The notes under the pieces: model-generated
What the model was told of the DNA's origin: nothing
The model's input: the letters and a program-made list of their open reading frames with translations, nothing else
The model's database searches: none
Shown: one piece after another, positions 4,594-49,397 of the stretch
Layout of the letters: each line of letters opens with the position of its first letter
How positions within the stretch are numbered: the stretch's first letter is position 1
Position numbers and translations under genes: made by a program
Origin: Peptococcaceae bacterium CEB3
GTDB taxonomy: Bacteria; Bacillota; Desulfitobacteriia; Desulfitobacteriales; Desulfitobacteriaceae
NCBI GenBank assembly: GCA_001029295.1
Contig: LDXJ01000039.1
Location: 1-57,178 of the forward strand
Reading direction: 5' to 3'
Length of the DNA: 57,178 bases

Positions 4594-5257
4594 CCCCGCT
4601 ACCTCCGTTCAGCATGGCCAAGGTCACCGTTTGACCCGGTTCCACATAAACCGATTCGGACACCCTTTCTCCATTCAGGATGGATATCAACAGATTAAGT
4701 TCGCCTTGCATCTCACCCGTTTTCCAACCGAAAAAATCGGCAATCTCTTTTACCCGTTTGCGGTAGGATTCTATATCTTTCATGCCCGGAGTTAGAATGA
4801 GGACAGCCTTAGTATAACGGCCGTACAATGAATCAATAAGTTGCCCGGCTTTTTTTGGTCCATACTTCTGCATATATTCTAAGTATTCCTGATAGGGAGT
4901 CCGTCCGTAGTCCAACCACCCTTGGCTAAAATAATAGGTGGTCGGGCTCTCCTTGAACGCTTCCTGGTGCCGGGCATTAGAACCCAGCATTAGGCCTATG
5001 CAGTCATGAGTAGCCGGGAAGAGAAGAGGCACCTGCGGCGATATGAGACCGACCACGGCATTGGAGCAGCGGCCGTAAGTTAGGGTGATCAGGTCGTAGT
5101 CCTGACTCTCATCGATGAGTTCCTGCAACTTGCGGTGCAATTTGTCCGGCCTGGCATGGTAGGTGTAATCTAAGAAAACGTAGTCTGCGCTTTTTTCCGA
5201 TCCGTACCACTTAACTTCATTCATTGTCGATTGGCAGCCAATCAGCCTTATTTTCAA
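4577..5257 (-). CDS. DUF1638 family protein (corrinoid-operon accessory, unknown function)
   Basis: The product (about 226 residues) belongs to DUF1638, whose function is not known. Conserved features visible here and in the second copy (29550-30197) are Cys8 in a GCQ context, TYGRCS with Cys64, and THDCIGL with His84-Asp85-Cys86. That pattern suggests a metal or cofactor site (inference). I chose the TTG at 5257: AAGGAG abuts the ATG at 5266 but is nine bases from the TTG, and MKIRLIGCQ then aligns with MKGKVLACQ of the paralogue. There is no signal peptide or membrane segment. It lies between the BCCT transporter and RACo genes and overlaps RACo by 17 bp, which points to a role in methyltransferase assembly, activation or methyl transfer. 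Confidence 0.85.
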   Translation of the reverse strand: MKIRLIGCQSTMNEVKWYGSEKSADYVFLDYTYHARPDKLHRKLQELIDESQDYDLITLTYGRCSNAVVGLISPQVPLLFPATHDCIGLMLGSNARHQEAFKESPTTYYFSQGWLDYGRTPYQEYLEYMQKYGPKKAGQLIDSLYGRYTKAVLILTPGMKDIESYRKRVKEIADFFGWKTGEMQGELNLLISILNGERVSESVYVEPGQTVTLAMLNGGSGDENNC

Positions 5258-5481
5258 CCGTGTCATCTCCTTAGCATAGCAATGGCGGGTCTAGGCCACC
5301 GGACCAGGTTTGAACGACTGCCCGACCGCCGGGATTGGAAGCTCTGAATGGCTTCTGTTGCCCCGATAAACCCCGTGAAACGGTAGGACATTCGATTTGG
5401 GAGAGATCGTAGCTGTCAGTTAGACACTAGGTACAACAAGTCAGGTGTGCTGACCGGGTTGTGGCTCGCCATCCGCTGACA

Positions 5482-5512
5482 AAGCGCCCAGGCCCAAACA
5501 GCCCAGGCGCTT
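5482..5512 (-). terminator. Stable hairpin downstream of the BCCT gene
   Basis: AAGCGCC (5482-5488) pairs with GGCGCTT (5506-5512), with further GGCC/GGGC pairing inside. It lies just after the BCCT stop codon on the minus strand. There is no clear T-run, so it may be a processing or partial-termination hairpin that lowers expression of the downstream DUF1638-RACo pair. The rest of 5267-5523 shows no other feature. Confidence 0.45.
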
Positions 5513-5523
5513 GCCTTTTGATG

Positions 5524-7020
5524 TCAACTCATGGGATGATCCTGACGAAGAGCCTTCCATATGCTGTAGCACATCACCAGCATAATCAGCATAAATGGGA
5601 AGGCCGACGCAATGGATGCGGTTTGCAAAGCTGTTAAAGCCGCTTTGCCGCCGACCAAAATTAACATGATCGTGAGAATTCCCTGCAATATGCCCCAGAA
5701 ACTGCGTAGTTTTCTGCCCGGATTCATATTTCCATCCGAAGTGAGCATGGCTAGCACGTAGGTGGCGGAATCCGCCGCAGCCACAAAGGAAGCGATGATG
5801 AGAACGATGGCCAGTGGGCCGGTCAGAGAATAGAGAGGCATTTGCTTGAGGGCGGCAAACAGTGCGGTGGTGTAATCCGTTTTTACCGCGGTCTGGATTG
5901 CTCCCCCGCTCAACTGATTGAGGTGGAACCCTGCTCCGCCGTAAATGGCCAGCCAGATTAGGGAGAACCCCGCAGGTAGCAAGGACACCGCCAGGATGAA
6001 TTCACGGATGGTGCGGCCTTTGGAAACCCGGGCCACAAACTGACCGACGAAGGGCGCCCAGGCAATCCACCAGGCCCAGTAAAAGATGGTCCAGCTTTTC
6101 AGCCAGGGAATGTTCCCCATCCACAGGCTCTGGCTGACAAAGTTGGCTAAATAAGCGCCCAGGGCGTTCGTAAAGTTGTTGAGAATGAATAGGGTGCCCC
6201 CGAAAAGAAAGATGAAGACCATGAAGGCGATCGAGAGCCAAACCTTGATATTGGCGGCCATTTGCATGGCTTTATGCAGTCCGGAAATTGTGGTTAGTGT
6301 AAACAGAACCGTGATCACGGCTATGATGATTGTAATGCTTAAGGAAGTGGCTTTGATGCCCCAGATATACTGGAAACCAGTAGCAATTTGACTGGAACCG
6401 AGCCCCAAGCTAGTTGCTACGCCAAAAACCGTGGCAAAAACTGAGAGAATGTCAATCGCTTTACCGATAGGACCATAGATGCGCTCCCCCAGCAGCGGGT
6501 AAAATGCGGAACTGACTAGGAATGGAAGGCCTTTTCGGAATTGAAAGTAAGCCAGAGCTAAGCCGCCTATGGCGAAAATAACCCAAGCGGAGATTCCCCA
6601 ATGGAAAAACACAATCCGCATCGCTGTTTGCATCGCTTCCGGCGTACCCCCGCGGCCGACCGGCGGGGACATGTAATCCATCATTGGTTCAGCCACCGAC
6701 CAGAAGACCAGGCCGATGCCCATCCCACCACCGAAGAGCATAGCGAACCATTGAAAGTTGTTGAATTCCGGTTTGTCATCATCCTTTCCCAGCTTAATCT
6801 GTCCGTAACGGCTGAAAGCTATTCCGAAGGCAAAGGCTACAAAAAAGGCCACAGCCAGCAAATAAAGCCAGCCGAACTCCGTGGTAAGGAAAGAGAAAAC
6901 TGAGTTAACGACTTTATTCATCGCGGTTGGGGCGAACATTCCGAAAAGCACAAACAGCAATACGATCACCGAGGATACATAGAGTACGGCACGATTGGAC
7001 GACTTTTTTCTATCCGTCAT
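5524..7020 (-). CDS. BCCT family betaine/carnitine/choline transporter
   Basis: This 498-residue integral membrane protein has about 12 hydrophobic segments and is a secondary importer of trimethylammonium compounds driven by an ion gradient. Family hallmarks are GMGIGLVFWSVAEPMMDY in the first third and the BCCT signature around FYWAWWIAWAPFVGQFVAR, whose aromatic residues form the substrate box. The C-terminal tail is short (KALRQDHPMS), without the long charged osmosensing tail of BetP-like carriers, which suits nutrient uptake better than osmotic control (inference). GAGGGGG precedes the ATG at 7020. It follows mtgC in the same direction, so glycine betaine is the likely substrate. Confidence 0.92.
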   Translation of the reverse strand: MTDRKKSSNRAVLYVSSVIVLLFVLFGMFAPTAMNKVVNSVFSFLTTEFGWLYLLAVAFFVAFAFGIAFSRYGQIKLGKDDDKPEFNNFQWFAMLFGGGMGIGLVFWSVAEPMMDYMSPPVGRGGTPEAMQTAMRIVFFHWGISAWVIFAIGGLALAYFQFRKGLPFLVSSAFYPLLGERIYGPIGKAIDILSVFATVFGVATSLGLGSSQIATGFQYIWGIKATSLSITIIIAVITVLFTLTTISGLHKAMQMAANIKVWLSIAFMVFIFLFGGTLFILNNFTNALGAYLANFVSQSLWMGNIPWLKSWTIFYWAWWIAWAPFVGQFVARVSKGRTIREFILAVSLLPAGFSLIWLAIYGGAGFHLNQLSGGAIQTAVKTDYTTALFAALKQMPLYSLTGPLAIVLIIASFVAAADSATYVLAMLTSDGNMNPGRKLRSFWGILQGILTIMLILVGGKAALTALQTASIASAFPFMLIMLVMCYSIWKALRQDHPMS

Positions 7021-7126
7021 ACGCTTACCCCCTCATTTTAATGCGAAAAATCCAGAACTTTTGCGGAATTTAAGGTAGAAGATGGACGGCAGCTACTTTG
7101 GCTGCCATCCTCGCCCTACCGGCAGA

Positions 7127-7771
7127 CTATCTTGCCAGTATGCGGTTGGCCAGTTCCACCGCTTCGTCCGCTGTTTCCGCCCAGCCATCGGCCCCGATCT
7201 CGTTGGCCCAGGACTGGCTCGTCGGGCCCCCGCCTACAAATACTCGAAATTGGCCTCGCAGATTTTGCTCTTTCAGGTACTGAATGATCTGCTTTTGTCC
7301 TATCATGGTCGTGGTCAACAGGGCGCTGGCTCCGATGATATCGGCTCCCACTTCTCGAGCTTTCTTCACAAACTCCTCCACTTTGATATCCGTGCCCAAA
7401 TCAAACACTTTGTACCCGGCAGCCGTAAACATTGCTCCCATGATGTTTTTACCGATGTCATGAATGTCGCCTTCCACAGTACCGATGACGATCTTTCCCT
7501 TAACATTACCGTCACCCATTCCCAACTTGGCGATCTCAGGTTCCAAAATTGCCAAACCCGCCTTCATTGCCTCTGCAGACATCATGACGTCGGGCAAGAA
7601 GGCTTCTCCAGCTTTCCAGGCTTCGCCAATCACTTCGATGCCCTTAACGAGTCCTTCCTGAACCGCATCCACTGGGCTCGTGCCTTCAGCGACAGCTTTC
7701 TCGGAAAGTTCTGCGACCATGTCTTCATCCCCGTCGATAACCGCTTGCTTCAGTTCATCGTAAAGGTTCAT
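7127..7771 (-). CDS. mtgC: Corrinoid protein of the glycine betaine methyltransferase system
   Basis: This 214-residue corrinoid protein has a helical cap (residues ~1-90) and a B12-binding domain with GDIHDIG supplying the cobalt-ligating histidine, then SALLTTTM and VFVGGGPTS loops. It accepts the methyl group from MtgB and donates it to MtgA. I chose the ATG at 7771 because GGAGGG lies 8 bases upstream; an earlier ATG at 7786 overlaps that site. The order mtgA-mtgB-mtgC-BCCT matches the characterised glycine betaine locus of Desulfitobacterium hafniense as I recall it (DSY3154-DSY3157). Confidence 0.9.
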   Translation of the reverse strand: MNLYDELKQAVIDGDEDMVAELSEKAVAEGTSPVDAVQEGLVKGIEVIGEAWKAGEAFLPDVMMSAEAMKAGLAILEPEIAKLGMGDGNVKGKIVIGTVEGDIHDIGKNIMGAMFTAAGYKVFDLGTDIKVEEFVKKAREVGADIIGASALLTTTMIGQKQIIQYLKEQNLRGQFRVFVGGGPTSQSWANEIGADGWAETADEAVELANRILAR

Positions 7772-7861
7772 TTCTTTTCCCTCCATCGTTTATATTAACT
7801 ACCTAATATTTCTAGGAGCCTCAAGTTTTGATCCGGCTGAGTTGTTTTGCCGTCCTGTCTC

Positions 7862-9286
7862 TCACATCAGTTTGGCTGCGCGTTTGGCGATGAACTCCTG
7901 TAACTTCTTATCAACCTCGGCGTCAAGGGCTGGTGGGACGTAGTTGGCTAGGACTTTCTGCCATTTTTTGTGTGCTCTTTCGTTCGTGTCGATTTTTTCT
8001 TTAGCCCAGGAGTCGTAAGCTACGCGATCGCTTAACTCCGCAGTTCGAAATTCACGCCGGTGGTTCTTACGCGTATGCTTCTGGGTCAGGAAGTGACCGC
8101 CGGGTCCCACTTTAGCAATTACATCGAAAGCCATTCCGTCTTCGTCAAAGTGGAAACCGTTCATATAGTGCAGGAGCATCCCGGCCATTTCGTCGTCCAT
8201 CATGAACTTCTCATAAGACATGGCCATAAAATATTGAAGGATCCCTGCGGTGTGCAGGACAAAATTGATTCCGGTTACCGTCGATGCCATGAGTGTCATC
8301 ATTGACTCGTAGCCGGCCTGGGCATCGACAATCTTGGAGTCGTTGAGGCCACCGCCGGAACGGCTGGGCACTTTATAGAAACGAGCGATTTGAGCGCTGG
8401 CGGAAATGAAGAGAGCGCATTCGGGGCTCCCGATGGAGAGGCTGCCGCTGTGCATGTCGCTGAGCGCCGATGTCGAACCGTAAACGACTGGTGTCCCCGG
8501 GTTGATGCTTTGAGCCAAAGCGATCCCGGCAAGGACCTCGGCGTTTTGTAAGGCCAAGGTGCCTGCTAGGGCGGCCGGCCCAGTGGAGCCCGCCATGACT
8601 AGAGAAGCGATTACTAAGGCCTGCCCTGCCTCTGCATAGGCCATTAGCGCCCCCAGCATTCTCCCATCATACTTAAGAGGAGTAAGGGAGTTGATCAGAG
8701 AAATCAAAACTGGTTTTTCCTTAATCACCTCTCGACCGCCAAACAGGATGGAAGCGATTTCGATGGAGTCCTCCGCCCGTTCTCGGCCTTCGGCGCTGCC
8801 CATAAAGCATTTATCAGAGTTTTTAATCGAACTATAAAGCATTTTCAAGTGGCGGATTTCGTCATGGATATCTTGGGGCTCTGCCACCGTGCCTCCGGTC
8901 ATATGCAGGTTCTTGCTGGCCCCGGCCAGCTTGACAAAGTTGTCATAATCCTGCATCATTGTTTTGCGGCGAGAACCATCTACTTCGTGAATGAATGGTG
9001 CTCCGTAGCCAGGCATGTAAATGATGTGGTCGCCACCGCACACCAGGTTGTGTTCCGGATTGCGCGCATGCAGAGTAAATTCGGCTGGAGCTAGCCTGAC
9101 TTTGTCTTCGATGAACTCGCGGGTAAAATGAACGCGGTTTCCTTCAACGTTTTGGTCTTCTTTCTGAAACACAGCCAGTGCCGGCCCATACCCGAACTCC
9201 ATCCCGACCTCAGAAAGAATACGGATGGATTCCTCATGAATCGCTCGAACTTGTTCATCCGTAAGAACATTGTACTTTGGTAACAT
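7862..9286 (-). CDS. mtgB: Glycine betaine:corrinoid methyltransferase (non-pyrrolysine MttB family)
   Basis: This 474-residue TIM-barrel methyltransferase of the trimethylamine methyltransferase (MttB) superfamily moves one methyl from glycine betaine to the MtgC corrinoid, leaving dimethylglycine. The frame is open without an in-frame TAG, so it is the pyrrolysine-free type. Visible landmarks are PGYGAPFIHEVDGSRRK, NSDKCFMGSAEGRE, SLINSLTPLKYD, MAGSTGPAALAGTLALQNAE and the C-terminal KVGPGGHFLTQKHT. Family assignment is certain; the substrate rests on gene order (MtrH-type mtgA upstream, mtgC and BCCT downstream) and resemblance to Desulfitobacterium MtgB. AAGGGGTG precedes the ATG. Confidence 0.9.
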   Translation of the reverse strand: MLPKYNVLTDEQVRAIHEESIRILSEVGMEFGYGPALAVFQKEDQNVEGNRVHFTREFIEDKVRLAPAEFTLHARNPEHNLVCGGDHIIYMPGYGAPFIHEVDGSRRKTMMQDYDNFVKLAGASKNLHMTGGTVAEPQDIHDEIRHLKMLYSSIKNSDKCFMGSAEGRERAEDSIEIASILFGGREVIKEKPVLISLINSLTPLKYDGRMLGALMAYAEAGQALVIASLVMAGSTGPAALAGTLALQNAEVLAGIALAQSINPGTPVVYGSTSALSDMHSGSLSIGSPECALFISASAQIARFYKVPSRSGGGLNDSKIVDAQAGYESMMTLMASTVTGINFVLHTAGILQYFMAMSYEKFMMDDEMAGMLLHYMNGFHFDEDGMAFDVIAKVGPGGHFLTQKHTRKNHRREFRTAELSDRVAYDSWAKEKIDTNERAHKKWQKVLANYVPPALDAEVDKKLQEFIAKRAAKLM

Positions 9287-9316
9287 AACGCTACACCCCT
9301 TTAATTTAATTTGGTT

Positions 9317-10261
<945 letters not shown>

Positions 10262-13741: not shown

Positions 13742-14300
13742 TTGCATTTAGTTACAGCCCCAATGGCGGGGGCCACGGCGCCTTGTACTTTGGCTGGGAC
13801 GTTGGCCAGCGGCATATCCGAAAGCTTGGGCGGACTTGTCATTCACCAGTTAAAGCAGGCGGGGGCACCCTTTATTATGGGCGGCGTATTTACCATAATG
13901 GATATGAACACCACTATTTTCTCATATGCTGCTCCGGAGTTTAATCTTCTTCAGGCCGGACAGACGGACGTAGCCCACTACTTAGGCTTGCTGAACTTCT
14001 GTACGGCAGGCTGCAGTGACTCAAATGTTTTGGATCAGCAGGCTGCGGCCGAAGCGATGTTTTCGATCTTGGTGACTGGACAGAGCGGGGCGAACCTAAT
14101 TCATGATGTCGGTTACCTGGAATACGGTTCAACCGGTTCGTTGGAGATGCTGGTCATGAGTAATGAACTCATTGGGATGGCTAAGCGCTTTGTTCGAGGT
14201 ATTCGGGTCAATAAAGAGACTTTAGCCACACAAGTAGTGGACCAAGTTGGACCGGGCGGCATTTCTTAGGTGAGCAACATACTTTGGATTACATGCGCCC
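13742..14300 (+). pseudogene. Remnant of an MttB family methyltransferase
   Basis: The reading frame 13742-14269 encodes the middle-to-C-terminal part of an MttB-family protein. MAGATAP, PFIMGGVFTIMDM, TAGCSD, YLEYGSTGSLE and VGPGG align with the intact protein at 26026-27483. The N-terminal ~260 residues are missing. Near 14263 one base has been lost, so GGHFLGEQHTLDY continues in the next frame and the original one stops. The last ~80 residues are not recognisable. It is a dead gene, closest to the second MttB of the downstream operon, and suggests a duplicated unit decayed here. Bases 14300-14550 hold no gene. Confidence 0.85.
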
Positions 14301-14571: not shown

Positions 14572-14869
14572 GCCTTAAAGGTTGATTTAACTAAGTCACG
14601 AGGCATCAGTCTTGGCACCACGTATGTCGAAAAATTGCAATTCCTTATATTGCAATAGGAGGTGTAGGCGTCACAAGGGCAAGTGCCACATTAATGAGTC
14701 GTACTGGCAGCGCTTCAAGAAGGGTCGGACGGCTCATGTGGCTCAGGCGAAGGAAATTGCGAAGTTTCTGAAGAGGGCGATAACCTTACGTGAGCCCAAG
14801 CTAAATCGGGAGGGAAGAGATGTTGTACCTGGTTCTGTGAGGTTAATCTGTTTAGGAAGGGAGCCAGCG

Positions 14870-15730
14870 ATGCCAGTAAAAATTGAGGTTAAGAATTTAA
14901 CCAAGATTTTCGGGCTGCAACCGGACAGAGCGCTGAAACGGTTGGAACAAGGAATGAGCAAAGAACGGTTAGCGGAGACCGGCCATATCGTTGCAGTTCA
15001 TAACGTTACATTTTCCGTCTCAGATGGTGAGATATTTGTGATTATGGGATTGTCCGGAAGCGGCAAGTCAACGTTGTTGAGGTGTTTGAACCGTTTGATT
15101 GAACCAACCGCTGGTACGGTGGCAATTGATCAACAAGACGTCACAAAAATAATGCTTAGGGAGTTAAGGCAAGTCCGGCAGAAGAAAACTGCCATGGTCT
15201 TTCAACAGTTTGCCCTTATGCCGCACAGGACGGTCCTGCATAATACGGTATTTGGATTGGAGGTTCAAGGCGTTAAGAAAGAGGAAAGAGAAAGGAGGGC
15301 CCGAGAAAGTCTGGCCATGGTGGGGCTGGCAGGATGGGAAAACTCCTATCCTCATGAGCTGAGTGGAGGTATGAAGCAGCGTGTTGGCTTAGCAAGGGCC
15401 TTAACGAACGATCCGGATATTCTGTTTATGGACGAAGCCTTTAGTGCCCTAGATCCCCTGATCAGAGAAGGAATGCAAGATGAGTTACTAAGTTTACAGA
15501 AGCAAATGAGCAAGACCATAGTTTTTATCACGCATGACCTATTCGAGGCTCTTAAAATAGGTGATCGTATCGCTTTTGTCCGGAATGGCTCCTTGGTTCA
15601 GGTTGGTCCCCCACAAGAAATAGTTGCGGCCCCTGCCGATGATTATGTTGCGAACTTTGTCAAAGGGATAGAACGTCTGGGGAAGCTGTACAGTCAACGA
15701 AGTGAGGTCGTGGTGGAGGAAAGGGTGTAA
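14870..15730 (+). CDS. Glycine betaine/proline-type ABC importer, ATP-binding protein (no CBS domains)
   Basis: This 286-residue ATPase of the ProV/OpuAA type energises uptake of a quaternary amine. Walker A is GLSGSGKS, the signature LSGGMKQR and Walker B DILFMDEAFSALD. The 25-residue N-terminal insertion before the first strand's end (DRALKRLEQG) is typical of ProV. It ends soon after the ABC domain (KGIERLGKLY), so the tandem CBS domains of OpuAA that sense ionic strength or c-di-AMP are absent. This fits use as a nutrient importer (inference). I chose the ATG at 14870: AGGAAGGGAG precedes it and MPVKIEVKNLTKIFG is the family start. It opens an operon with permease and binding protein under the sigma-54 promoter at 14555. 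Confidence 0.9.
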   Translation: MPVKIEVKNLTKIFGLQPDRALKRLEQGMSKERLAETGHIVAVHNVTFSVSDGEIFVIMGLSGSGKSTLLRCLNRLIEPTAGTVAIDQQDVTKIMLRELRQVRQKKTAMVFQQFALMPHRTVLHNTVFGLEVQGVKKEERERRARESLAMVGLAGWENSYPHELSGGMKQRVGLARALTNDPDILFMDEAFSALDPLIREGMQDELLSLQKQMSKTIVFITHDLFEALKIGDRIAFVRNGSLVQVGPPQEIVAAPADDYVANFVKGIERLGKLYSQRSEVVVEERV

Positions 15731-15758
15731 CATGATCGATCTGGGCAAGAGGTGACAC

Positions 15759-16640
15759 ATGGAGATCTATCGTTTACCGCTGGGCCAATGGGTCAATGTT
15801 GGTGTGGATTGGTTGCTAAAAAATTATGGCCACACCTTTGATCTATTTTCGAGTAGTATTAAATCTATCATTGATCAGTTCAAAATGGGTTTGACGGTTT
15901 TGCCATGGTGGCTTATTTTGATAGTTTTTATTGTACTGGCGTGGAAGGCCAACGGCTGGCGTCTGGCTCTTGGAACAGGCCTCGGATTAAGCTTAATCTT
16001 TGATTTGAGCCTGTGGCCGGCTTTTCTGGACACGCTTGTCCTGGTCATCTTTTCGGCTCTGGTTTCAATCTTTATCGGAGTACCTCTGGGGATTTTGGCT
16101 GCTCGAAGCAACAACTTTCATCGCATTTTCACACCACTTTTAGATTTTATGCAAACCATGCCATCCTTCGTATATCTCATACCTGCTTTGATGTTTTTTG
16201 GATTGGGCACTGTCCCGGCAATTTTTGCAACTGTCATTTTTGCCATGCCGCCGGTGACAAGGTTGACTGACTTGGGCATCCGACAGGTTCCGGCTGAGTT
16301 GATTGAAGTAGGTGAGGCTTTTGGCTCTACGCCAAGACAAATGCTATGGAAGATACAGTTACCCGTAGCCTTGCCGACGATTATGGCAGGCATCAACCAA
16401 ACTTTAATGTTGTCGCTGTCCATGGTGGTGATCTCGGCTATGATTGGGGCAGAGGGTTTTGGAGCCGGTGTTTTGCAAGGTATATCCCAAATGGATATAG
16501 GAAAAGGGTTTGAAAACGGCCTGGCTGTTGTCATTCTGGCCATGGTGCTGGACCGAATGAGCCAAGGAATTATTAAGCGTGGTACAGCAGGTGCGAGAAA
16601 AAGGCGACCCCGATCTTTGCCGAAGGGTAATGTAGATTGA
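15759..16640 (+). CDS. Glycine betaine/proline-type ABC importer, permease
   Basis: This 293-residue inner-membrane permease of the ProW/OpuAB type has about six to seven hydrophobic segments. The EAA loop that contacts the ATPase is around EVGEAFGSTPRQMLWKIQLPVALPTIMAGIN. The N-terminus (MEIYRLPLGQWVNVGVDWLL) is characteristic of OpuAB. It lies 28 bp after the ATPase gene and 25 bp before the binding protein gene, and GAGGTGAC precedes the ATG. Confidence 0.92.
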   Translation: MEIYRLPLGQWVNVGVDWLLKNYGHTFDLFSSSIKSIIDQFKMGLTVLPWWLILIVFIVLAWKANGWRLALGTGLGLSLIFDLSLWPAFLDTLVLVIFSALVSIFIGVPLGILAARSNNFHRIFTPLLDFMQTMPSFVYLIPALMFFGLGTVPAIFATVIFAMPPVTRLTDLGIRQVPAELIEVGEAFGSTPRQMLWKIQLPVALPTIMAGINQTLMLSLSMVVISAMIGAEGFGAGVLQGISQMDIGKGFENGLAVVILAMVLDRMSQGIIKRGTAGARKRRPRSLPKGNVD

Positions 16641-16665
16641 CGAGAAATTGAGGGAGGGACAATAA

Positions 16666-17586
16666 ATGATCCCAAAGTCCGTGTTTAAGAAACCGACTCT
16701 CGTTGTTTTGTGCGCTGTGGTCGTTCTTCTATTGATTGCGTCGTTGAACGGTTGCGGCCAGCAGGCTGGTTCCACAGGAGCAAATCAACCACAGGCAAGC
16801 GCTACCCAGGCAAAAGGTACAATTAGAATCGGGTATGTAAATTGGGCCGAAGACATTGCAGTTAGTAACCTGTGGAAGGAAATTTTGGAAAAGCAAGGGT
16901 ATACCGTGAACTTGCAGAGCGTGGATGTTGCGCCCCTGTTTGTCGGACTCAGTAAAGGCGACTTGGACGTTTTTCTTGACGCGTGGTTGCCGGTTACTCA
17001 CAAAGCTTATTGGGATAAATACAAACAGGATTTGCAGGATTATGGTATCTGGTATCAGTCTCCGGCCAGGATTGGCTTGGTGGTGCCGAATTACGTCACC
17101 ATTAACTCCATCGACCAAATGAACTCGGAAAGGCCGAAATTTGACGGTCAAATCATTGGAATCGACCCGGGGGCTGGCATCATGAAGGCTGCTGCCAAAG
17201 CCATACAAGATTACGGATTGAGATTTAAGTTAGTGCAGGGCAGCGAGGCGGCCATGATGGCGGCATTACAAAAGGCCTATCGCGATAAGAAATGGATAGT
17301 GATAACTGGGTGGAGCCCCCACTGGATGTTTGCCAAATATCAGCTAAAGTACTTGAGCGATCCTAAAAAGGATTTCGGCCAGGCGGAGGGTCTGCATACC
17401 TTGGCCAACAAGGATTTCAGCGCGAAGATGCCAGAAGTGGCGGCAGAGTTGAGGCGTTTTAAGTTGACCGACGAGCAAATCGGTGGGTTGGAGGCTTTAA
17501 TAAATCAGGGGATGGCACCCCAGGAAGCGGCCAAGAAGTGGGTTAGCGAGAACCAGAACGTTGTTGATGGCTGGACGAAAGGATAA
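16666..17586 (+). CDS. Glycine betaine/proline-type substrate-binding lipoprotein (OpuAC/ProX)
   Basis: This 306-residue extracytoplasmic binding protein is anchored as a lipoprotein. A hydrophobic signal (residues ~10-30) ends in the lipobox LNGC. The OpuAC-type domain follows, with YVNWAEDIAVSNLW at its start, DVFLDAWLP and WVITGWSPHWMF; its scattered tryptophans are the likely cation-pi box for a trimethylammonium head. Ligand identity (glycine betaine, proline betaine or other) cannot be read from sequence. GGGAGGG precedes the ATG. Confidence 0.9.
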   Translation: MIPKSVFKKPTLVVLCAVVVLLLIASLNGCGQQAGSTGANQPQASATQAKGTIRIGYVNWAEDIAVSNLWKEILEKQGYTVNLQSVDVAPLFVGLSKGDLDVFLDAWLPVTHKAYWDKYKQDLQDYGIWYQSPARIGLVVPNYVTINSIDQMNSERPKFDGQIIGIDPGAGIMKAAAKAIQDYGLRFKLVQGSEAAMMAALQKAYRDKKWIVITGWSPHWMFAKYQLKYLSDPKKDFGQAEGLHTLANKDFSAKMPEVAAELRRFKLTDEQIGGLEALINQGMAPQEAAKKWVSENQNVVDGWTKG

Positions 17587-22594: not shown

Positions 22595-22802
22595 TTTGGA
22601 TTGACCTATAGTGATACGTTGCCGTGATCAATCTTTTTGTAAGATTGGTCCAGCACGTTCGGCACAAAGATATCACCCTTTATGAAAGACTTCCATCGCG
22701 CTTTCCAGGCCGACGCGATCATGACGCAGCTAAGGGTGCACAAGTCAGAGTAAGGCACACAGGTTAATGAACAAATCTGGTTTTTTACGAGGAGGGTGGA
22801 AG

Positions 22803-23438
22803 ATGTCAAATTATTTTGGAGATCTTGCCCAAAGCGTGATTGCCGGCCGGCAGGAACAGGTGAAGGAACTGACTCGCCAAGCTCTTGATGCGGGAACAGG
22901 TCCGGTCGAGATTATCAACCAAGGGTTGATTGCCGGGATGAATGTTGTCGGGGCCCGCTTTAAGGTCGGACAGATGTTTGTTCCGGAGGTTCTGATGTCG
23001 GCTCGGGCGATGAACGGAGGCATGGAACTTGTCAAACCTTTGCTGGTGGGTCAGGAATTGCCTTCGGCCGGTAAAGTGGTGCTGGGCACGGTCAAAGGAG
23101 ATCTGCACGATATCGGCAAGAACCTGGTGGGCATGATGTTGGAGAGTGCGGGATTTACAGTTGTAAATCTGGGAGTTGATGCGGGTCCGGAGAAATTTCT
23201 GCAGGCCATTAAGGAGCACAAGCCCGGCGTCATCGGTATGTCGGCTCTGTTGACGACGACCATGCTGTCCATGAAGGATACGATTGAGGTGCTGAAAGAG
23301 GAGGGCTTAAGAAACAAAGTCAAAGTCATCGTGGGCGGGGCTCCCATATCCCAGGACTTTGCCGAGGAAATCGGGGCGGACGGGTTTGCGCCTGACGCAG
23401 CCTCGGCTACCGATCTCTGCAAGAAACTGCTGGCCTGA
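22803..23438 (+). CDS. Corrinoid protein, first copy of a near-identical pair
   Basis: This 211-residue MttC/MtgC-type corrinoid protein has the cap domain and the GDLHDIG cobalt-ligand motif, then SALLTTTM and VIVGGAPIS. I chose the ATG at 22803 (MSNYFGDLA) because GGAGGG is 7 bases upstream. It is the first gene after the sigma-54 promoter at 22578 and precedes an MttB-family gene. It differs from the copy at 25362-25997 at only a handful of residues. Confidence 0.92.
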   Translation: MSNYFGDLAQSVIAGRQEQVKELTRQALDAGTGPVEIINQGLIAGMNVVGARFKVGQMFVPEVLMSARAMNGGMELVKPLLVGQELPSAGKVVLGTVKGDLHDIGKNLVGMMLESAGFTVVNLGVDAGPEKFLQAIKEHKPGVIGMSALLTTTMLSMKDTIEVLKEEGLRNKVKVIVGGAPISQDFAEEIGADGFAPDAASATDLCKKLLA

Positions 23439-23588
23439 CAAAACAGGTGGTCCGGAAAAACGAAGAAACAGGAGAAACAAAGGAACAGAAAAAACGATGG
23501 AACAGGAGAGGAGAAGAAGCAGAAAAAGACGAATGACCTGAAAGACGAACGGTCCGAGAAAGTGAATACGGAAAGGAGAGAACGAATT

Positions 23589-25070
23589 TTGACGAGAAGT
23601 CAGTACGTACGAGCGAATTACCAAGTCAATGCCACTCCACAATTTCACGTGTTGAGCGAACACCAATGTGAGGACATTTATTACGGCGCTCTTGAGGCTT
23701 TGGAGCGGACCGGAGCGGAGGTACACAGCCAGACGGCCTTGCGGATTTTCCGGGAGGGCGGCTGCCGGGTTGACGGCAACCGGGTGCGTTTCCCGGCTCG
23801 TTTGGTGGAACGGGCTGTACGCAGCACCCCCTCGCGCGTGGTCATTTCGGACCGTGAGGGGCACAGGTCCATGTTTTTAGAAGGTAACAATGTCTATTAT
23901 GGACCGGGGCCAACGAACACCTACACCTTGGACCCTTTTACAGGGGAAAGGCGGCGGCCGAAAAAGTCTGATACGGTTCGGGCGGGAATTGTCTGTGATG
24001 CCTTACCCAACATAGCCTACGCTATGGATAACGGTACGCCCATGGATGTCACTCCCACTTTGGCAGACGTGCACGCCTTCCAGGCTTTGGTGGAGAACAC
24101 GGTGAAACCCATTATCCATTGGGGTTTCGGGATCGAGCAATATCAGGACATTGTTGATATGGCGGCGGCGGTGACGGGCAGTCTGGAGGAACTCCAACGA
24201 AATCCTTTTATTATTCTCTATTCGGAATCCAGCCCGCCTCTGCGTCATTCAGAGGAGGCAATTGACAAGGCTATATTTGCCGCAAAAACGGACATTCCGG
24301 TAATTTACACCCCATGCACGTTTTCTGGTGGAGTGGCTCCGGCCACAATGGCCGGCAGTCTGGTGATTTCAGTAGCCGATTTTTTGGTTGGACTTGTGGC
24401 CGGTCAGCTAGTGCGCGAGGGCGCTTCTTTCATCATGGGCGGGTTGATTTCCACAATGGATATGTCGAGTTCCATTTTATCCTACGGTGCCACGGAATTG
24501 AGTTTGCTCTCAGCGGGCCTTACCGACGTGGCGCGCTATATGAAGATACCTATGTTTAGTACGGGCGGCTGCACAGACTCCAAGGTAATTGACGTTCAGA
24601 TGGGCATTGAAGCGGCGTTTTCCATCTTGATTGCCGGATTGAGTGGTGCCAACGTTGTGCATGACTGCAATTACATGGAGTATGGGGCAACAGGATCGCT
24701 TGAGCTCATGGTGATGGACGACGAAATTATCGGCATGGTCAAGAAGATTCTCAAAGGTATCGAAGTAGATGACGAACACCTGGCAGTGGATGTCATTGAT
24801 GCGGTAGGACCGGGCGGTCATTTTTTAGGCGAGATGCACACCATGGCGCATTTTCGCGACTTTTGGGCTCCAACCCTGATCAATCGTCTCAGATACGACG
24901 GCTGGAAAGCCGAGGGGTCAAAAACGATGGGGCAACGGGTTAGGGAAAAGACGCAAAATATCATAAACACGCACGAACCAGAAAGACTACCCAAAGACGT
25001 GTTGCACCGGATCCAAGAGGTCGTGGACCGGGCGGAAGCACGGGAAGCGGCCAAGAAGATTTCCAAATAA
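23589..25070 (+). CDS. MttB family quaternary amine methyltransferase A (non-pyrrolysine)
   Basis: This 493-residue corrinoid-dependent methyltransferase has an MttB-superfamily TIM barrel. Landmarks are EGNNVYYGPGPTNTYTLDP, LPNIAYAMDNG, ATMAGS, FIMGGLISTMDM, STGGCTDSK, YMEYGATGSLE and VGPGGHFLGEMHT. No in-frame TAG exists, so it is pyrrolysine-free. It belongs to a different subgroup from mtgB (7862) and shares roughly half its residues with the protein at 26026, so its substrate probably differs from both. The TTG at 23589 was chosen because AAGGAG lies ten bases before it and the protein then aligns with its paralogue; a GTG at 23562 would add nine residues with no ribosome site. Confidence 0.88.
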   Translation: MTRSQYVRANYQVNATPQFHVLSEHQCEDIYYGALEALERTGAEVHSQTALRIFREGGCRVDGNRVRFPARLVERAVRSTPSRVVISDREGHRSMFLEGNNVYYGPGPTNTYTLDPFTGERRRPKKSDTVRAGIVCDALPNIAYAMDNGTPMDVTPTLADVHAFQALVENTVKPIIHWGFGIEQYQDIVDMAAAVTGSLEELQRNPFIILYSESSPPLRHSEEAIDKAIFAAKTDIPVIYTPCTFSGGVAPATMAGSLVISVADFLVGLVAGQLVREGASFIMGGLISTMDMSSSILSYGATELSLLSAGLTDVARYMKIPMFSTGGCTDSKVIDVQMGIEAAFSILIAGLSGANVVHDCNYMEYGATGSLELMVMDDEIIGMVKKILKGIEVDDEHLAVDVIDAVGPGGHFLGEMHTMAHFRDFWAPTLINRLRYDGWKAEGSKTMGQRVREKTQNIINTHEPERLPKDVLHRIQEVVDRAEAREAAKKISK

Positions 25071-25361
25071 CCCATAACGTTGACGCGGTGGAAGGGGTTA
25101 TTTTCAAAGTTGACGGCTAGGCCGCCGGCATAGTGGCCAAATGGCGAGACCGTTTAGTGCGCTTGTTGGGCTTATGCCGAAGATCGAGACTCTGGGATGA
25201 AGTCCATCCCTATTGAACCATGGCGTGCGGCGTCCACTTCTACTCGTAGAGGTTTGCAGATATCAGAGTCTCATGGTCGGATGAAAACACTTAAACTGAG
25301 TATTTTTCGGGATTCAAGATTTGAGATTGCAGATTCGAGATTGCGGATAGGAGGCCAACAG

Positions 25362-25997
25362 ATGTCAAATTATTTTGAAGATCTTGCTAAAAGCGTGATT
25401 GCCGGTCAGCAGGAACGGGTGAAGGAACTGACTCGCCAAGCTCTCGACGCGGGAACAGATCCGGTCGAGATTATCAACCAAGGGTTGATTGCCGGGATGA
25501 ATGTAGTGGGGGCCCGCTTTAAGGTCGGACAGATGTTTGTTCCGGAAGTCCTAATGTCGGCCCGGGCGATGAACGGGGGCATGGACCTCGTCAAACCTTT
25601 GTTGGTAGGCCAGGAATTGCCCTCGGCGGGTAAAGTGGTGCTGGGCACGGTCAAAGGAGACCTGCACGATATCGGCAAGAACCTTGTGGGCATGATGTTG
25701 GAGAGTGCGGGGTTCACGGTTGTCAACCTGGGAGTGGATGCTGGCCCGGATAAATTTCTTCAGGCCATTAAGGAGCACAAGCCCGGAGTCATCGGTATGT
25801 CGGCATTGTTAACGACGACCATGCTGTCTATGAAGGACACGATCGAAGTGTTGAAGGAGGAGGGTTTAAGAAACAAAGTCAAAGTCATCGTGGGCGGGGC
25901 CCCCATATCCCAGGATTTTGCAGAAGAAATCGGGGCGGACGGGTTTGCGCCTGACGCAGCCTCGGCCACCGATCTCTGCAAGAAATTGCTGGCCTGA
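25362..25997 (+). CDS. Corrinoid protein, second copy of a near-identical pair
   Basis: This 211-residue corrinoid protein is almost identical to the one at 22803-23438 (differences such as FED for FGD, TDP for TGP, MDL for MEL). It has the same GDLHDIG motif and start context (AGGAGG, ATG at 25362). High DNA similarity runs to the stop codon and slightly beyond. The preceding 25071-25361 holds no gene; it ends in a degenerate GATTTGAGATTGC/GATTCGAGATTGC repeat at ~25315-25350. Confidence 0.92.
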   Translation: MSNYFEDLAKSVIAGQQERVKELTRQALDAGTDPVEIINQGLIAGMNVVGARFKVGQMFVPEVLMSARAMNGGMDLVKPLLVGQELPSAGKVVLGTVKGDLHDIGKNLVGMMLESAGFTVVNLGVDAGPDKFLQAIKEHKPGVIGMSALLTTTMLSMKDTIEVLKEEGLRNKVKVIVGGAPISQDFAEEIGADGFAPDAASATDLCKKLLA

Positions 25998-26025
25998 AAA
26001 AACAAATACGGAAAGGAGGAGGACA

Positions 26026-27483
26026 ATGCCTGTCAAAAGCAATTATGTGGCCAATGCTACGCCCCTGTTCAGTATCCTGTCCCCCGGTCAGTGTGAAGAA
26101 ATCCTTTTTGCAGCCGAGGAGGTTCTCGAACGCACCGGTGTGACGGTGCATGACGAGGAAGCCCGTGATATCCTGAAAAAGGCCGGGTGTTGGCTGGACG
26201 GCATCCGGGTTCGCATTCCTTCGGCCGTGGTCGACCGGGCCCTTAATTCTGTGCCGAAAAGGGTTACCCTTTGCAATAGCCGCACCGGTTCTCGGGATGT
26301 GCTGTTGGAAGGAAACAACGCTTATTTTGGTACGGGGTCTGATACCCCTTTTACCATCGACCCATACACGGGCCAACGGAAGCGTTCAACCAAGCAGTCC
26401 GTCAGTTGGGCTTGCAAAGTGATTGATGCCTTGCCCAACCTGGACTTTGTCATGTCACTGGGGATCGTACAGGATGTTCCTCTGCTTATATCGGACCGCC
26501 ACCAATTTGAAGCCCAGGTACTCAACACAGGCAAACCTATTGTGACGACTGCCCATGACATCTATGGTTTTGCGGACATTATCGAGATGTGCGAGATCAT
26601 CGCCGGAGGAGAAGAAGAGTTGCGCCGCAATCCTTTTATGACACTCTACGCGGAGCCGATCTCTCCTCTGCAGCATGCCTGGGAGGCGGCATCAAAATTG
26701 GTGCTGGCTGCCCGGAAGGGGCTTCCGGTTGTCTACACCCCATGCGTTATGGCCGGTGGGACAGTTCCGGCGACGATGGCCGGGGTGCTCACCAATGGCC
26801 TGGCTGAGTCCCTCAGTGGCTTGGTGATTAACCAAGCGACCCGGGAAGGTTCCCCCTTTATTATGGGCGGTGTTTTTACCATTATGGACATGTCGAGTAC
26901 AATTTTCAGTTATGGCTCGCCGGAGTTTAATCTACTGATGTCCGCATTGGCGGATATGGCTCATTACCTGAAGCTCCCGATGTTTGGCACCGCCGGGTGC
27001 AGCGATGCCTGTGTCGTCGATGAACAGGCGGGTATTGAGGCAGCCCTGTCAATCGCTATGACAGCCTTGTCCGGACCAAATCTCAATCACGATGTGGGCT
27101 ACATTGAATACGGATCGACATCCTCCCTGGAGTATCTCACGATCAACAATGACGTGATCGGCATGGCCCGTCGTCTCGTGCGTGGAATTAAAGTCAATGA
27201 TGAGACATTGGCACTGGACCTCATTGACAAGGTGGGCCCGGGAGGGCATTTCTTAGCCGAGGATCACACGATGAAATACTTCAAGACGGAGACATACTAC
27301 CCGGAACTGATCAACCGGCAACGGTATGATGCCTGGAAAGAAGACGGGGCCAAGACCCTGTTCCAGCGTGCCAATGAAAAAGTCAAAGACATCATCGAAA
27401 ATTACCAGCCTGAGCCATTGCCTGCGGACGTTCAACAAAAAATCCGCGCGGTTGTCGAGAGGGCCGAACAGAAAGTCCGATAA
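26026..27483 (+). CDS. MttB family quaternary amine methyltransferase B (non-pyrrolysine)
   Basis: This 485-residue MttB-superfamily methyltransferase pairs with the corrinoid protein 28 bp upstream. EGNNAYFGTGSDTPFTIDP, LPNLDFVMSLG, PATMAG, FIMGGVFTIMDM, TAGCSDACVVDEQ and KVGPGGHFLAEDHT mark the barrel and C-terminus. There is no in-frame TAG. The ATG at 26026 follows AAGGAGGAGG. The pseudogene at 13742 is its closest relative in the window. Substrate unknown; a betaine other than glycine betaine is likely (inference). Confidence 0.9.
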   Translation: MPVKSNYVANATPLFSILSPGQCEEILFAAEEVLERTGVTVHDEEARDILKKAGCWLDGIRVRIPSAVVDRALNSVPKRVTLCNSRTGSRDVLLEGNNAYFGTGSDTPFTIDPYTGQRKRSTKQSVSWACKVIDALPNLDFVMSLGIVQDVPLLISDRHQFEAQVLNTGKPIVTTAHDIYGFADIIEMCEIIAGGEEELRRNPFMTLYAEPISPLQHAWEAASKLVLAARKGLPVVYTPCVMAGGTVPATMAGVLTNGLAESLSGLVINQATREGSPFIMGGVFTIMDMSSTIFSYGSPEFNLLMSALADMAHYLKLPMFGTAGCSDACVVDEQAGIEAALSIAMTALSGPNLNHDVGYIEYGSTSSLEYLTINNDVIGMARRLVRGIKVNDETLALDLIDKVGPGGHFLAEDHTMKYFKTETYYPELINRQRYDAWKEDGAKTLFQRANEKVKDIIENYQPEPLPADVQQKIRAVVERAEQKVR

Positions 27484-27520: not shown

Positions 27521-29485
27521 ATGCCCTTGGTGTTGGGAATTGACACAGGCGGCACGTTTACGGATGGGGTGCTGCTTGACGTCAGCACCAAAGAGGTTAA
27601 GAGAAAGGCCAAGGCATTCACGACACGTGAAGACTTGTCCATCGGCATCCGCAACTGTATTGACAATATTCGCGATTTGGATCCTCGCCAGGTTCATCTT
27701 GTGTCCCTTTCCACTACCCTGGCTACGAATGCCATTGTCGAAGGACGGGGTTGCCGGGTCGGGCTCATTCTCATCGGTCATGAGCCGACCGGTGAATTCC
27801 CGGCCCAAAGGACTTTTGTGGTTGCGGGTGGGCATGACATTAAAGGGATGCCGGTTGCGGAGCTTGACCTTGAAGCGGTTCATCAGGCTGTGGCGGAGAT
27901 GCGAGGGCAGGTCGACACTGTGGCTATTTCCGGTTATCTGAGCATTCGGAACCCTGAACATGAACGGAACGTTCGCCAAACGGTCCGGGAGCTATGGGAC
28001 GTGCCGGTCATTTGTGCGCACCAGCTCACAACCGCTTTGGGCTTTCATGAGCGGACGGTAACCGCCTGTTTGAATGCCAGGCTGTTACCGATTATTGCTG
28101 AGCTCCTGGCAGCCGTCAAAGAAGTCCTGGAAGAGAAAGGCATCCGGGTTCCTCTCATGGTCGTGAAAGGAGACGGGTCCCTAATGAGCGAGGAGATGAC
28201 ACGGGAAAAGCCCATTGAGACCTTATTGTCGGGGCCTGCGGCCAGTATTGTGGGGGCAACCTTTTTAACCGGGAGCGAATCCGCCTTAGCCTTGGATATG
28301 GGCGGTACGACGACAGATATCGCAATTCTGGAAAGGGGCCGCCCTCGCATGAACAGGGAAGGGGCTACGGTGGGCGGGTGGAAAACCAGGGCTGAGGCTG
28401 CGGAGATCAGCACGTTCGGCTTGGGGGGAGACAGTTATATGCAAGTGTCCCATGACCGGAAGCTGATTATTGGCCCCAAAAGGGTTTGGCCCCTGGCGGT
28501 CGCCGGGCAAAGGTTTCCCCATTTAGTTGAGGAGCTGACCCGTTCTGACCCGGATAGGAGTATCATCGACGCTCAACCGTCGGATTGTTGGATGTTGCTT
28601 AAGAAACCGGCTGGGAAAGATAGATGGAGTCACTCGGAGTGGCAAGTGGCAGAGGCTTTGGAGGACGGCGCCCACAATATTTTCACTTTGGCAGAGCGAC
28701 TGGGAAGAGATCCTAATTTGCTGCCCCTCAAAGGACTGGAACAGGCCCAAGTGTTGGGGAAGATTTCTTTCACTCCAACGGACCTGCTGCACGTTCGGGG
28801 GATTTTCACCGACTACAATGTGACGGCGGCTATGGAAGGCGCACGGATTCTGGCCCGCCGTCTGCGCCTGGATGTTAACCGATTTGCCGAAATGGCTTTG
28901 CAGGAAGTCGAAGCCGGCCTGTGTCTGAACATCTTGCAAAGTTTCGCTGATCGGGCGGGTCTGCAAGCCAAATTGGGAAGTGAACCGGGTGCCGCTTTCG
29001 TCTTGAGTTCTTTACTGGCCCGGGCGGACAGTCAAGGGTTCAACACGGAAATTCACTTGGGCTATCCGATTGTGGCCTTGGGCGCACCGGTCTCCGCCTA
29101 CCTCCCGCCTATCGGCAGGATTCTGCACACTCAGGTGTTGATTCCGCCCCATGCCGAGGTCGCCAATGCCGTTGGGGCTGCCTCGGGTCAGGTGGTGGAG
29201 ACAGTCCGCGCCCTTGTCAAGCCTAACAGCGGTGGGGGTTTTGTGGTGCATGCGCCCTGGGGACGGGAGGCTTTCTTAAACTTGTCCGAGGCCGAAAGTT
29301 ATGCCTTGGAAACGGCTCGGGCGGTCGCTTTGGAAAGTGCCGGGCGGGCAGGGGCCGTGAGCCCCGTGGTTATGGTTGAGAAACAGGAGGTGGTGAGTCA
29401 TACGGCCGGAGCGAGTGACGACGTCGTGTTTCTCGAAACGCGCATTGTGGCTGCGGCCGTCGGGCATCCTCATTGGGAGGAGTGA
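27521..29485 (+). CDS. Hydantoinase/oxoprolinase family ASKHA protein in a methyltransferase operon
   Basis: This 654-residue protein resembles the HyuA/OplA family. The N-terminal LGIDTGGTFTDGVLLD and a second phosphate site LALDMGGTTTDIAIL are ASKHA-type ATP-binding motifs, and STTLATNAIVEG and GDGSLM are family markers. Related enzymes hydrolyse hydantoins or 5-oxoproline with ATP. No HyuB partner gene follows, which argues against a hydantoinase complex. Instead it lies 38 bp after an MttB gene and before DUF1638 and an AcsE-like gene. It could open a cyclic substrate before demethylation, or act as an ATP-driven corrinoid-system factor like RACo's ASKHA domain (both inference). It has no Fe-S cysteines like RACo's. 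Confidence 0.78.
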   Translation: MPLVLGIDTGGTFTDGVLLDVSTKEVKRKAKAFTTREDLSIGIRNCIDNIRDLDPRQVHLVSLSTTLATNAIVEGRGCRVGLILIGHEPTGEFPAQRTFVVAGGHDIKGMPVAELDLEAVHQAVAEMRGQVDTVAISGYLSIRNPEHERNVRQTVRELWDVPVICAHQLTTALGFHERTVTACLNARLLPIIAELLAAVKEVLEEKGIRVPLMVVKGDGSLMSEEMTREKPIETLLSGPAASIVGATFLTGSESALALDMGGTTTDIAILERGRPRMNREGATVGGWKTRAEAAEISTFGLGGDSYMQVSHDRKLIIGPKRVWPLAVAGQRFPHLVEELTRSDPDRSIIDAQPSDCWMLLKKPAGKDRWSHSEWQVAEALEDGAHNIFTLAERLGRDPNLLPLKGLEQAQVLGKISFTPTDLLHVRGIFTDYNVTAAMEGARILARRLRLDVNRFAEMALQEVEAGLCLNILQSFADRAGLQAKLGSEPGAAFVLSSLLARADSQGFNTEIHLGYPIVALGAPVSAYLPPIGRILHTQVLIPPHAEVANAVGAASGQVVETVRALVKPNSGGGFVVHAPWGREAFLNLSEAESYALETARAVALESAGRAGAVSPVVMVEKQEVVSHTAGASDDVVFLETRIVAAAVGHPHWEE

Positions 29486-29564
29486 ATGTGAAAAGGAAGG
29501 TCTTCCTTTCGCGATACGACGTACTCGTAACCTGTTGGGAGGAATGAATGTGAAAGGAAAAGTC
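29473..29564 (+). repeat. Duplicated ribosome-site/start region before DUF1638
   Basis: TTGGGAGG-A/G-TGAATGTGAAA occurs at 29473-29503 and again at 29535-29564, 62 bp apart. The first copy overlaps the end of the preceding gene and opens a 19-codon frame that stops at the second copy; the second is the real start of the DUF1638 gene. It looks like a local duplication that left a short leader frame. Confidence 0.45.
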
Positions 29565-30197
29565 CTGGCTTGTCAGACGATGGCTGATGAAATTCAGAAG
29601 GTCCTCCCGCCCGGTCTCGACCTGGAACTCCTGCCTTATGCCTTGCATCGTGTGCCCCAGCGGCTGCAGTCCGAACTTCAGAAACGCATTGATGCCGACA
29701 CCGATCATGACACTTTGCTCTTTGGTTATGGCCTGTGCTCCTACGGCGTGGTCAATCTCCATTCCGAACGCCATACTCTAGTTATTCCACGGGTGCATGA
29801 CTGCATTAGTCTCCTCATGGGAGCGCGTGAAATTTACGATCGCGAGTTCGCAAAACATCCGGCCACGATTTATTTGAGTAAAGGCTGGATCGATCAAGGG
29901 GCCGAACCTTTGGCCGAGTTTAAGAGTTATGCCGAAGCATATGGAACCAAGGACGCGGAATGGATGATCGAGATGCAATACAGGCATTATCAACGGGTCG
30001 TTTTTATCGATACCGAGGTTGGCTGCCGGGAGAAGCTCGCCCTCTACACAAATAGCGTGGCCCAGTTTCTCGACGTCGCCTACGCTGAGCAACCTGGTTC
30101 CGTGAGGCTTTTGACCAAACTCTTCAGTGGGGACTGGGACCAGGAATTCGTGATTATTCCGCCCGGCAGAATGGTCATGCAACGAAGTTTTCTGTGA
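29550..30197 (+). CDS. DUF1638 family protein, second copy
   Basis: This 215-residue DUF1638 protein has unknown function. Cys8 (ACQ), Cys63 (YGLCSYGVV) and His83-Asp84-Cys85 (VHDCISLLMGA) match the positions of the same residues in the copy at 4577-5257, suggesting a conserved metal or cofactor site. GGGAGG lies 7 bases before the GTG at 29550, which I prefer over the ATG at 29544. It follows the ASKHA gene and precedes a pterin-dependent methyltransferase gene, so for the second time a DUF1638 gene sits inside a corrinoid methyl-transfer cluster. Confidence 0.85.
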   Translation: MKGKVLACQTMADEIQKVLPPGLDLELLPYALHRVPQRLQSELQKRIDADTDHDTLLFGYGLCSYGVVNLHSERHTLVIPRVHDCISLLMGAREIYDREFAKHPATIYLSKGWIDQGAEPLAEFKSYAEAYGTKDAEWMIEMQYRHYQRVVFIDTEVGCREKLALYTNSVAQFLDVAYAEQPGSVRLLTKLFSGDWDQEFVIIPPGRMVMQRSFL

Positions 30198-30468: not shown

Positions 30469-31263
30469 ATGTTGATAATCGGCGAACTGATTAATACCAG
30501 CCGGAAAGCTATTAAGCCGGCTGTGGAGCAGCGAGACTCAGCCTTTATCCAGAACCTGGCACAAAAGCAGGTGGATGCGGGTGCGCATTACGTCGATGTG
30601 AACTGCGGTACTTTGGTGCATGACGAGGTCCAGACGATGGAATGGCTCGTGGATACGGTTCAGGAAGCGGTGTCCCGGCCCCTTTGTCTCGACACGCCCA
30701 GGGCAGAAGCGATGGAAGCGGGGTTGGCCAGGGCCAACGGCCAACCGATGGTAAACTCTATCACCGCTGAGAAGGAGCGCTACGTCAGAATTTTGCCCCT
30801 GGTTCTCAAATATAAGGCGAAAGTAGTGGCTTTGTGCATGGATGACAAAGGGGTGCCGGCTTCAGCGGAAGAGCGTATCGCCATTGTTCGCCGCCTGGTT
30901 ACAGATCTGACAGCGGATGGCGTCCCGGAGGATGATATCTATCTCGATCCCTTGATTACGCCCATCAGCACCGGGGACCATTATGGCCAAGCCGTTCTGG
31001 AGACCGTCCGTTTTATCCGCCGGGAATATCCACAGGTTCACGCCGTCTGTGGCTTGAGCAACATCTCCTACGGGTTGCCCCACCGCAAGATTTTGAACCA
31101 GGCGTTCATGATTCAGACCATGACGGCAGGTATGGATGCCTACATTCTTGATCCATTGGACAAATCGATGATGGGTTTCGTCTATGCCTCCCAAGCGCTC
31201 TTGGGCCAGGATGACTACTGTGTGCAGTATCTAAGTGCCCACAGGAGCGGACTTTTCGAGTAA
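30469..31263 (+). CDS. Methyltetrahydrofolate:corrinoid methyltransferase, AcsE/DHPS-like
   Basis: This 264-residue pterin-binding TIM barrel of the AcsE/MetH-domain type starts LIIGELINTSRK. DVNCGT, PLCLDTP, VNSITAE, LDPLITP and CGLSNISYGLP are pterin-binding loops. It exchanges methyl groups between methylcorrinoid proteins and tetrahydrofolate, probably draining methyl from the two MttB/corrinoid pairs upstream. It is unrelated to the MtrH-type MtgA at 9317. GAGGGGGC precedes the ATG. Confidence 0.9.
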   Translation: MLIIGELINTSRKAIKPAVEQRDSAFIQNLAQKQVDAGAHYVDVNCGTLVHDEVQTMEWLVDTVQEAVSRPLCLDTPRAEAMEAGLARANGQPMVNSITAEKERYVRILPLVLKYKAKVVALCMDDKGVPASAEERIAIVRRLVTDLTADGVPEDDIYLDPLITPISTGDHYGQAVLETVRFIRREYPQVHAVCGLSNISYGLPHRKILNQAFMIQTMTAGMDAYILDPLDKSMMGFVYASQALLGQDDYCVQYLSAHRSGLFE

Positions 31264-45805: not shown

Positions 45806-45935
45806 CAGACTATCGGTGCCAGACGGGATGTTGTCGGACACCCCTGCTGGTACGGTGTCGGGTAATAAGTCATTGCAGTCATCAAGCGGCTGGGTGTAGA
45901 ACCCGTCGCACTAAAAATAAAAGGGGAATGCCGTG

Positions 45936-49243: not shown

Positions 49244-49397
49244 GTTTTTCCCGGGCAACAAGTTTCTCGAACTCCGGGCTGTGGGGGGCGGCGTCCTCCA
49301 CAGTTCTTGCATAGCTTCTTGGGTATTATGACAACAAAGGTACCATTACCTTTTTGCACTTTAGAGAATAATGAATGTGGAAGAGAGGAATCCCACC

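Follow-up and report, generated by a model that had tools for sequence, protein, structure and literature searches.

The window, i.e. the whole 57,178-nucleotide stretch of DNA analysed here, comes from a sulfate-reducing bacterium and carries on its forward strand an operon of the order C1-M1-C2-M2-HydA-DUF1638-MTII, in which two corrinoid carriers of nearly the same sequence (C1 and C2) alternate with two much less similar methylases of the MttB superfamily (M1 and M2). We propose that M1 and M2 are ancient enzymes with a common, twice-encoded carrier pool that is maintained by repeated gene conversion, a model to which we assign, taken as a whole, a probability of roughly 0.7. The computed parts of this model are the uneven divergence of carriers and methylases, the clustering of carriers by genome, the slot-specific leaders, the variable number of carriers and the ancient split between M1 and M2. 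To these we add, by inference, the use of either carrier by both methylases, the substrate class, the route of the methyl groups and selection for interchangeability. The methyl donors of M1 and M2 would probably be quaternary or tertiary amines, betaines for example, and the acceptor a single, functionally common corrinoid protein pool encoded by C1 before M1 and by C2 before M2, from which the one MTII would move the methyl groups to tetrahydrofolate. Repeated gene conversion between direct repeats would keep the C1 and C2 open reading frames (ORFs) alike in each genome, leaders and methylases would stay slot-specific through being too diverged for recombination, and selection for interchangeability may help to fix the conversions.

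C1 (22803..23438, + strand) and C2 (25362..25997, +; likely true start 25362, listed ORF start 25197) are direct repeats about 2.6 kb apart, each encoding a 211-residue corrinoid protein with the Pfam B12-binding_2 plus B12-binding architecture (PF02607 and PF02310; helical cap followed by the B12-binding domain) and the DxHxxG...SxL...GG motifs, which fall at residues 100 (DLHDIG), 147 (SxL) and 178 (GG). In the TIGR02370 profile, C2 scored 217.3 bits and C1 212.6 bits, the latter slightly below the cut-off of 215.3. Assignment of either protein as an MtgC equivalog (NF047995/NF047996) was rejected, as their scores of 219-238 bits lie below the curated cut-offs of 310 and 370. The original prediction that the carriers differ at only a few of 211 residues fits both in coordinates and in extent, the exact number being seven (G6E, Q10K, R16Q, Q19R, G33D, E75D and E130D). 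At the DNA level, 52 of 636 nucleotides differ (91.8% identity), 43 of them in third positions, and the differences beyond the seven replacements are silent. The DNA match starts at the AGGAGG ribosome site, ends with the stop codon and does not continue outside these limits. With a dS of 0.38, the two genes are not near-identical in DNA, and their last homogenisation was thus not recent. The slot-1 leader with its ribosome site (..ACGAGGAGG.., 22790..22802, +) is slot-specific across genomes. Short imperfect repeats (GATTCAAGATT / GATTTGAGATT / GATTCGAGATT, 25311-25348) lie immediately 5' of the C2 ribosome site, and a 34-nt purine-rich tandem repeat (74% alike) occupies positions 23441-23508 between C1 and M1 and is absent between C2 and M2.

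PF06253 covers the full length of both M1 (23589..25070, +; E 2.9e-97) and M2 (26026..27483, +; 485 aa; E 2e-104), far above cut-off, placing them in the MttB superfamily. M2 likely starts at ATG 26026 and M1 at TTG 23589, which has a ribosome site, the first ORF start being GTG 23562. A 14-nt leader, AATACGGAAAGGAG, is common to the 5' sides of both genes and lies within direct repeats that hold the ribosome sites of M1 (23551..23578, +) and M2 (25991..26018, +). M1 and M2 share 49% of their residues, in agreement with the prediction of about half, and 54% of their DNA, with synonymous sites saturated. Set against the 91.8% of the carriers, this bears out the claim of uneven divergence, which an even level across carrier and methylase genes would have contradicted. 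Two more specific identities were discarded for the methylases. As pyrrolysine-dependent trimethylamine methyltransferases (TIGR02369), M1 and M2 reached 423.7 and 432.7 bits against a cut-off of 525, with no internal stops in their frames; as MtgB, they scored 238 and 231 bits against structure 2qne, compared with 876 bits for the protein encoded by the window at 7862-9286.

The same operon is found in Acididesulfobacillus acetoxydans (NZ_LR746496), the nearest relative compared and a member of the same genus, and variant forms occur in Desulfosporosinus and Ca. Formimonas. Among 80 relatives, many have two carriers about 2.2 kb apart that are equally similar to those of the window. Within-genome carrier dS was 0.38 in the window, 0.72 in A. 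acetoxydans and 0.30 in D. fructosivorans, and another five Desulfosporosinus-type genomes gave 0.18-0.68. Of the nine Acididesulfobacillus/Desulfosporosinus genomes that have two carriers in the C1-M1-C2-M2 operon type, seven fell between 0.18 and 0.72. Unhomogenised pairs, with dS of 1.9 and 3.1, were present in D. lacus and SRJS8, and comparisons between the window and Desulfosporosinus carriers were mostly saturated at silent sites. That A. acetoxydans is assembled as a single contig of 4,520,225 bases argues against the pairs being assembly collapses. In the carrier tree, the copies group by genome, except that C1 of D. lacus and SRJS8 joins G030 and their C2 joins OKU5. Orthology by slot was rejected by the AU test over all carriers (3.7e-57), over both genera (6e-6) and within the window's genus only (0.014). 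The constraint that all pairs cluster by genome was rejected too (AU 4.7e-35), because D. lacus and SRJS8 have unhomogenised pairs. With these exceptions, paralogues are closer to each other than to their syntenic orthologues in several lineages, silent sites included.

The original prediction had left the likeness of the carriers to selection or gene conversion; the second of these explains the pattern, and selection alone does not. Were C1 and C2 simply old duplicates kept alike as proteins by purifying selection so as to fit common partners, the very low carrier dN (0.015-0.022) would be accounted for, but silent sites are homogenised as well, third positions differing by 0.10-0.34 within genomes (six genomes), whereas carriers of one slot differ from genome to genome by 0.51 on average. 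Nor has codon bias frozen these genes: between the window and A. acetoxydans, dS of orthologous carriers is an ordinary 0.65-0.73, similar to that of M1 (0.67) and M2 (0.56), and carrier silent sites are thus free to change. We accordingly consider this explanation of the C1/C2 likeness ruled out by the silent sites and give it next to no credence.

Genome-wise clustering would equally result if a single ancestral carrier, in an M1-C-M2 or C-M1-M2 operon, had been copied anew to the other slot in each lineage with no conversion at all, and single-carrier operons of both orders do exist. What makes such independent re-duplication unlikely is that the leaders of slot 1 and slot 2 are each conserved between species and the ORFs are not. 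The leaders resemble the same slot elsewhere rather than the other slot of their own genome, with upstream local scores between Desulfosporosinus genomes of 31.5 for slot 1 and 92.5 for slot 2 (a value to which the 3'-terminal coding sequence of M1 contributes), as opposed to 9.8 within a genome. Leaders that follow the slot around ORFs that follow the genome, in identical operon slots, fit ORFs that were converted where they stood and do not fit a new duplication. The old copies in D. lacus and SRJS8 further indicate that two carriers predate these lineages. Mosaic carrier pairs, also at odds with re-duplication, were detected in HMP52 (p 0.018), UBA8487 (p 0.044) and G030 (0 of 4000 permutations). 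The G030 pair, located near contig ends (L002, L003), is nearly identical over its first 360 nt and diverged over its last 240, a pattern that may stem from conversion of part of the gene or from the assembly. Permutation gave no mosaic signal within the window's own pair (p 0.58 and 0.69), as expected if a single old tract had spanned the complete ORF. Taken together, the sequences fit repeated homogenisation of the carrier ORFs in place by gene conversion. In line with conversion, the sites that differ in both the window and A. acetoxydans pairs and can be matched to both slots are evenly split (five follow slot, five oppose it). Within the window's genus alone, support for conversion is moderate: slot orthology was rejected by the AU test (0.014) but not by the SH test, and the window's carrier dS of 0.38 is not set apart from that of ordinary orthologues, which runs from 0.34 to 1.64 between the two species with GbuA and LivK left out. 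The unhomogenised pairs of D. lacus and SRJS8 indicate that conversion is episodic and divergence tolerated.

The view that the whole unit was duplicated and its methylase then diverged does not hold. M1 and M2 belong to two orthologue groups that parted anciently: the methylase tree splits by M1 and M2, not by genome, and the two genes form an adjacent pair across Clostridia, Spirochaetes and Symbiobacterium, around which the number and position of carriers vary. A search for M2 relatives in 84,980 species genomes yielded 35 loci, three of them cut by contig ends. In all 32 loci with enough sequence, M1 adjoins M2. Carriers, counted by hand and in a few cases limited by contig starts, occupied both slots in eight loci, only the slot between M1 and M2 in 12 and only that before M1 in nine; one further locus read M2-M1-C and two had no adjacent carrier.

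Single-carrier operons with both methylases, in the M1-C-M2 and C-M1-M2 orders, are consistent with interchangeable carriers, as is the operon of Desulfosporosinus sp. PR, in which M1-C2-M2 is intact and C1, having lost about 555 internal nt compared with G025, is reduced to a stub of some 24 codons (L027:1660-1760). A search for residues separating C1 from C2 in all genomes compared returned none, which fits interchangeability. In Eubacterium limosum, a single corrinoid protein, MtqC, serves MtpB, MtcB and MtyB (PMC8604678). One carrier thus probably serves both M1 and M2, and the suggestion that a single pool could supply several methylases gains indirect support. A reading in which C1 is dedicated to M1 and C2 to M2, conversion being a neutral, functionally meaningless by-product of nearby direct repeats, would suit the gene order C-M1-C-M2 and the persistence of unconverted pairs in D. 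lacus and SRJS8, and would require no selection. We find it doubtful given the many operons with one carrier beside both methylases, the retention of M1 without C1 in strain PR, slots that no residue consistently separates, and the MtqC precedent. Alternatively, M1 and M2 might form a mixed enzyme whose complexes would be poisoned by drift between C1 and C2, each carrier having to fit both methylases and conversion being selected. The MttB-MttC structure, in which a single carrier contacts two adjacent methylase subunits (PMC9842639), provides a basis for this idea, which if true would explain the constant adjacency of M1 and M2 despite the variable carrier number, but which we hold to be quite improbable. 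Under our preferred model of a shared, converted carrier pool, homogenised, unhomogenised, single-carrier and C1-deleted operons constitute natural replicates for testing selected interchangeability.

Downstream of M2, the operon continues with HydA, a hydantoinase/oxoprolinase-like gene (27521..29485, +; PF05378/PF01968) with conserved synteny in relatives, the DUF1638 gene (29550..30197, +; PF07796, E 7.8e-40) and MTII, a pterin-binding methyltetrahydrofolate:corrinoid methyltransferase (30469..31263, +; PF00809; NF005719, 365.9 bits versus a cut-off of 259). The Ca. Formimonas warabiya DCMF cluster Ga0180325_114734-114742 has a like order, CoP-MTI-CoP-MTI-HydA-MTII (PMC9768040). A Formimonas locus (L039) that we take, from its gene order, to be this cluster encodes proteins 53% and 62% identical to M1 and M2, respectively. 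The two layouts are not identical: the Formimonas cluster continues with a third MTI and a pair of BCCT transporters (PMC9768040), whereas in the window HydA and MTII are separated by a DUF1638 gene and an MttB gene (37031) lies at a greater distance. The proteins of the Formimonas cluster are among the most abundant on glycine betaine, and the authors of that study suggest that the multiple MTI/CoP subunits may be glycine betaine- and dimethylglycine-specific, with one MTII (PMC9768040). From the induction of this cluster and the carrier sharing of MtqC, we infer betaine-like substrates and a common carrier pool for the M1/M2 operon by analogy. Glycine betaine itself may not be a substrate of M1 and M2, as the window encodes a true MtgB homologue (7862-9286; 876 bits to 2qne) to which they are only 28-29% identical. 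That the methylases diverged toward a new substrate, as originally suggested, is plausible.

The cluster type, with its glycine-betaine-induced Formimonas counterpart, is already known, as is the concerted evolution of corrinoid proteins in methanogens, where it affects mtmB/mtmC, mtbB/mtbC and mtrA (PMC6053082, PMC4632066). There, too, long-lasting gene conversion homogenises methyl-transfer corrinoid proteins (PMC6053082, PMC4632066), but in these archaea the methylases of mtm and mtb are homogenised as well, whereas in the window this applies to the carrier alone, its partners remaining 49% identical. A bacterial case with only the carrier homogenised is new; in the literature searched, which covered papers outside subscription, we found no instance of gene conversion or concerted evolution of bacterial corrinoid proteins. 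E. limosum MtqC likewise represents one carrier for several MttB-family methylases and one MTII, yet has a single gene at a separate locus and its sharing was proven by enzyme assay (PMC8604678). MtgABC of Desulfitobacterium hafniense (MtgB structures 2qne and 9yce) also combines an MttB superfamily methylase with a corrinoid protein and an MTII; M1 and M2 belong to another clade. The operon would thus illustrate how gene conversion can preserve the uniformity of a common subunit in spite of divergence among the enzymes that use it, and it points to a methylase pair with putative betaine-type substrates in widespread betaine-handling anaerobes.

Gbu- and Liv-type transporter genes lie 5' of the operon in a synteny kept in A. 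acetoxydans; those of the glycine-betaine ABC type (Gbu/OpuA/ProVWX; 14612..17586, +) were read from translations. A decayed methylase remnant (13742..14269, +) is 94.5% identical in DNA over 545 nt to M4 of a third unit, C3-M4-M3, which is intact in A. acetoxydans and provides the source match for this MttB fragment; C3 and the other parts of the unit were looked for in the window and left no trace. The 5.3-Mb assembly contains nine MttB matches and 35 corrinoid-domain matches. Apart from the operon, a second, canonical betaine set (2734-10252, - strand) comprises a RamA-like activase (2734-4593), a DUF1638 protein, a BCCT transporter, a corrinoid protein (7127-7786), the MtgB homologue and an MtrH-type MTII. 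DUF1638 proteins thus occur in both methyltransferase sets of the window (29550-30197 and 4577-5266). Finally, two FAD-dependent oxidoreductase-like paralogues (45933-47294 and 49371-50756), 73% identical, flank an MFS-type transporter.
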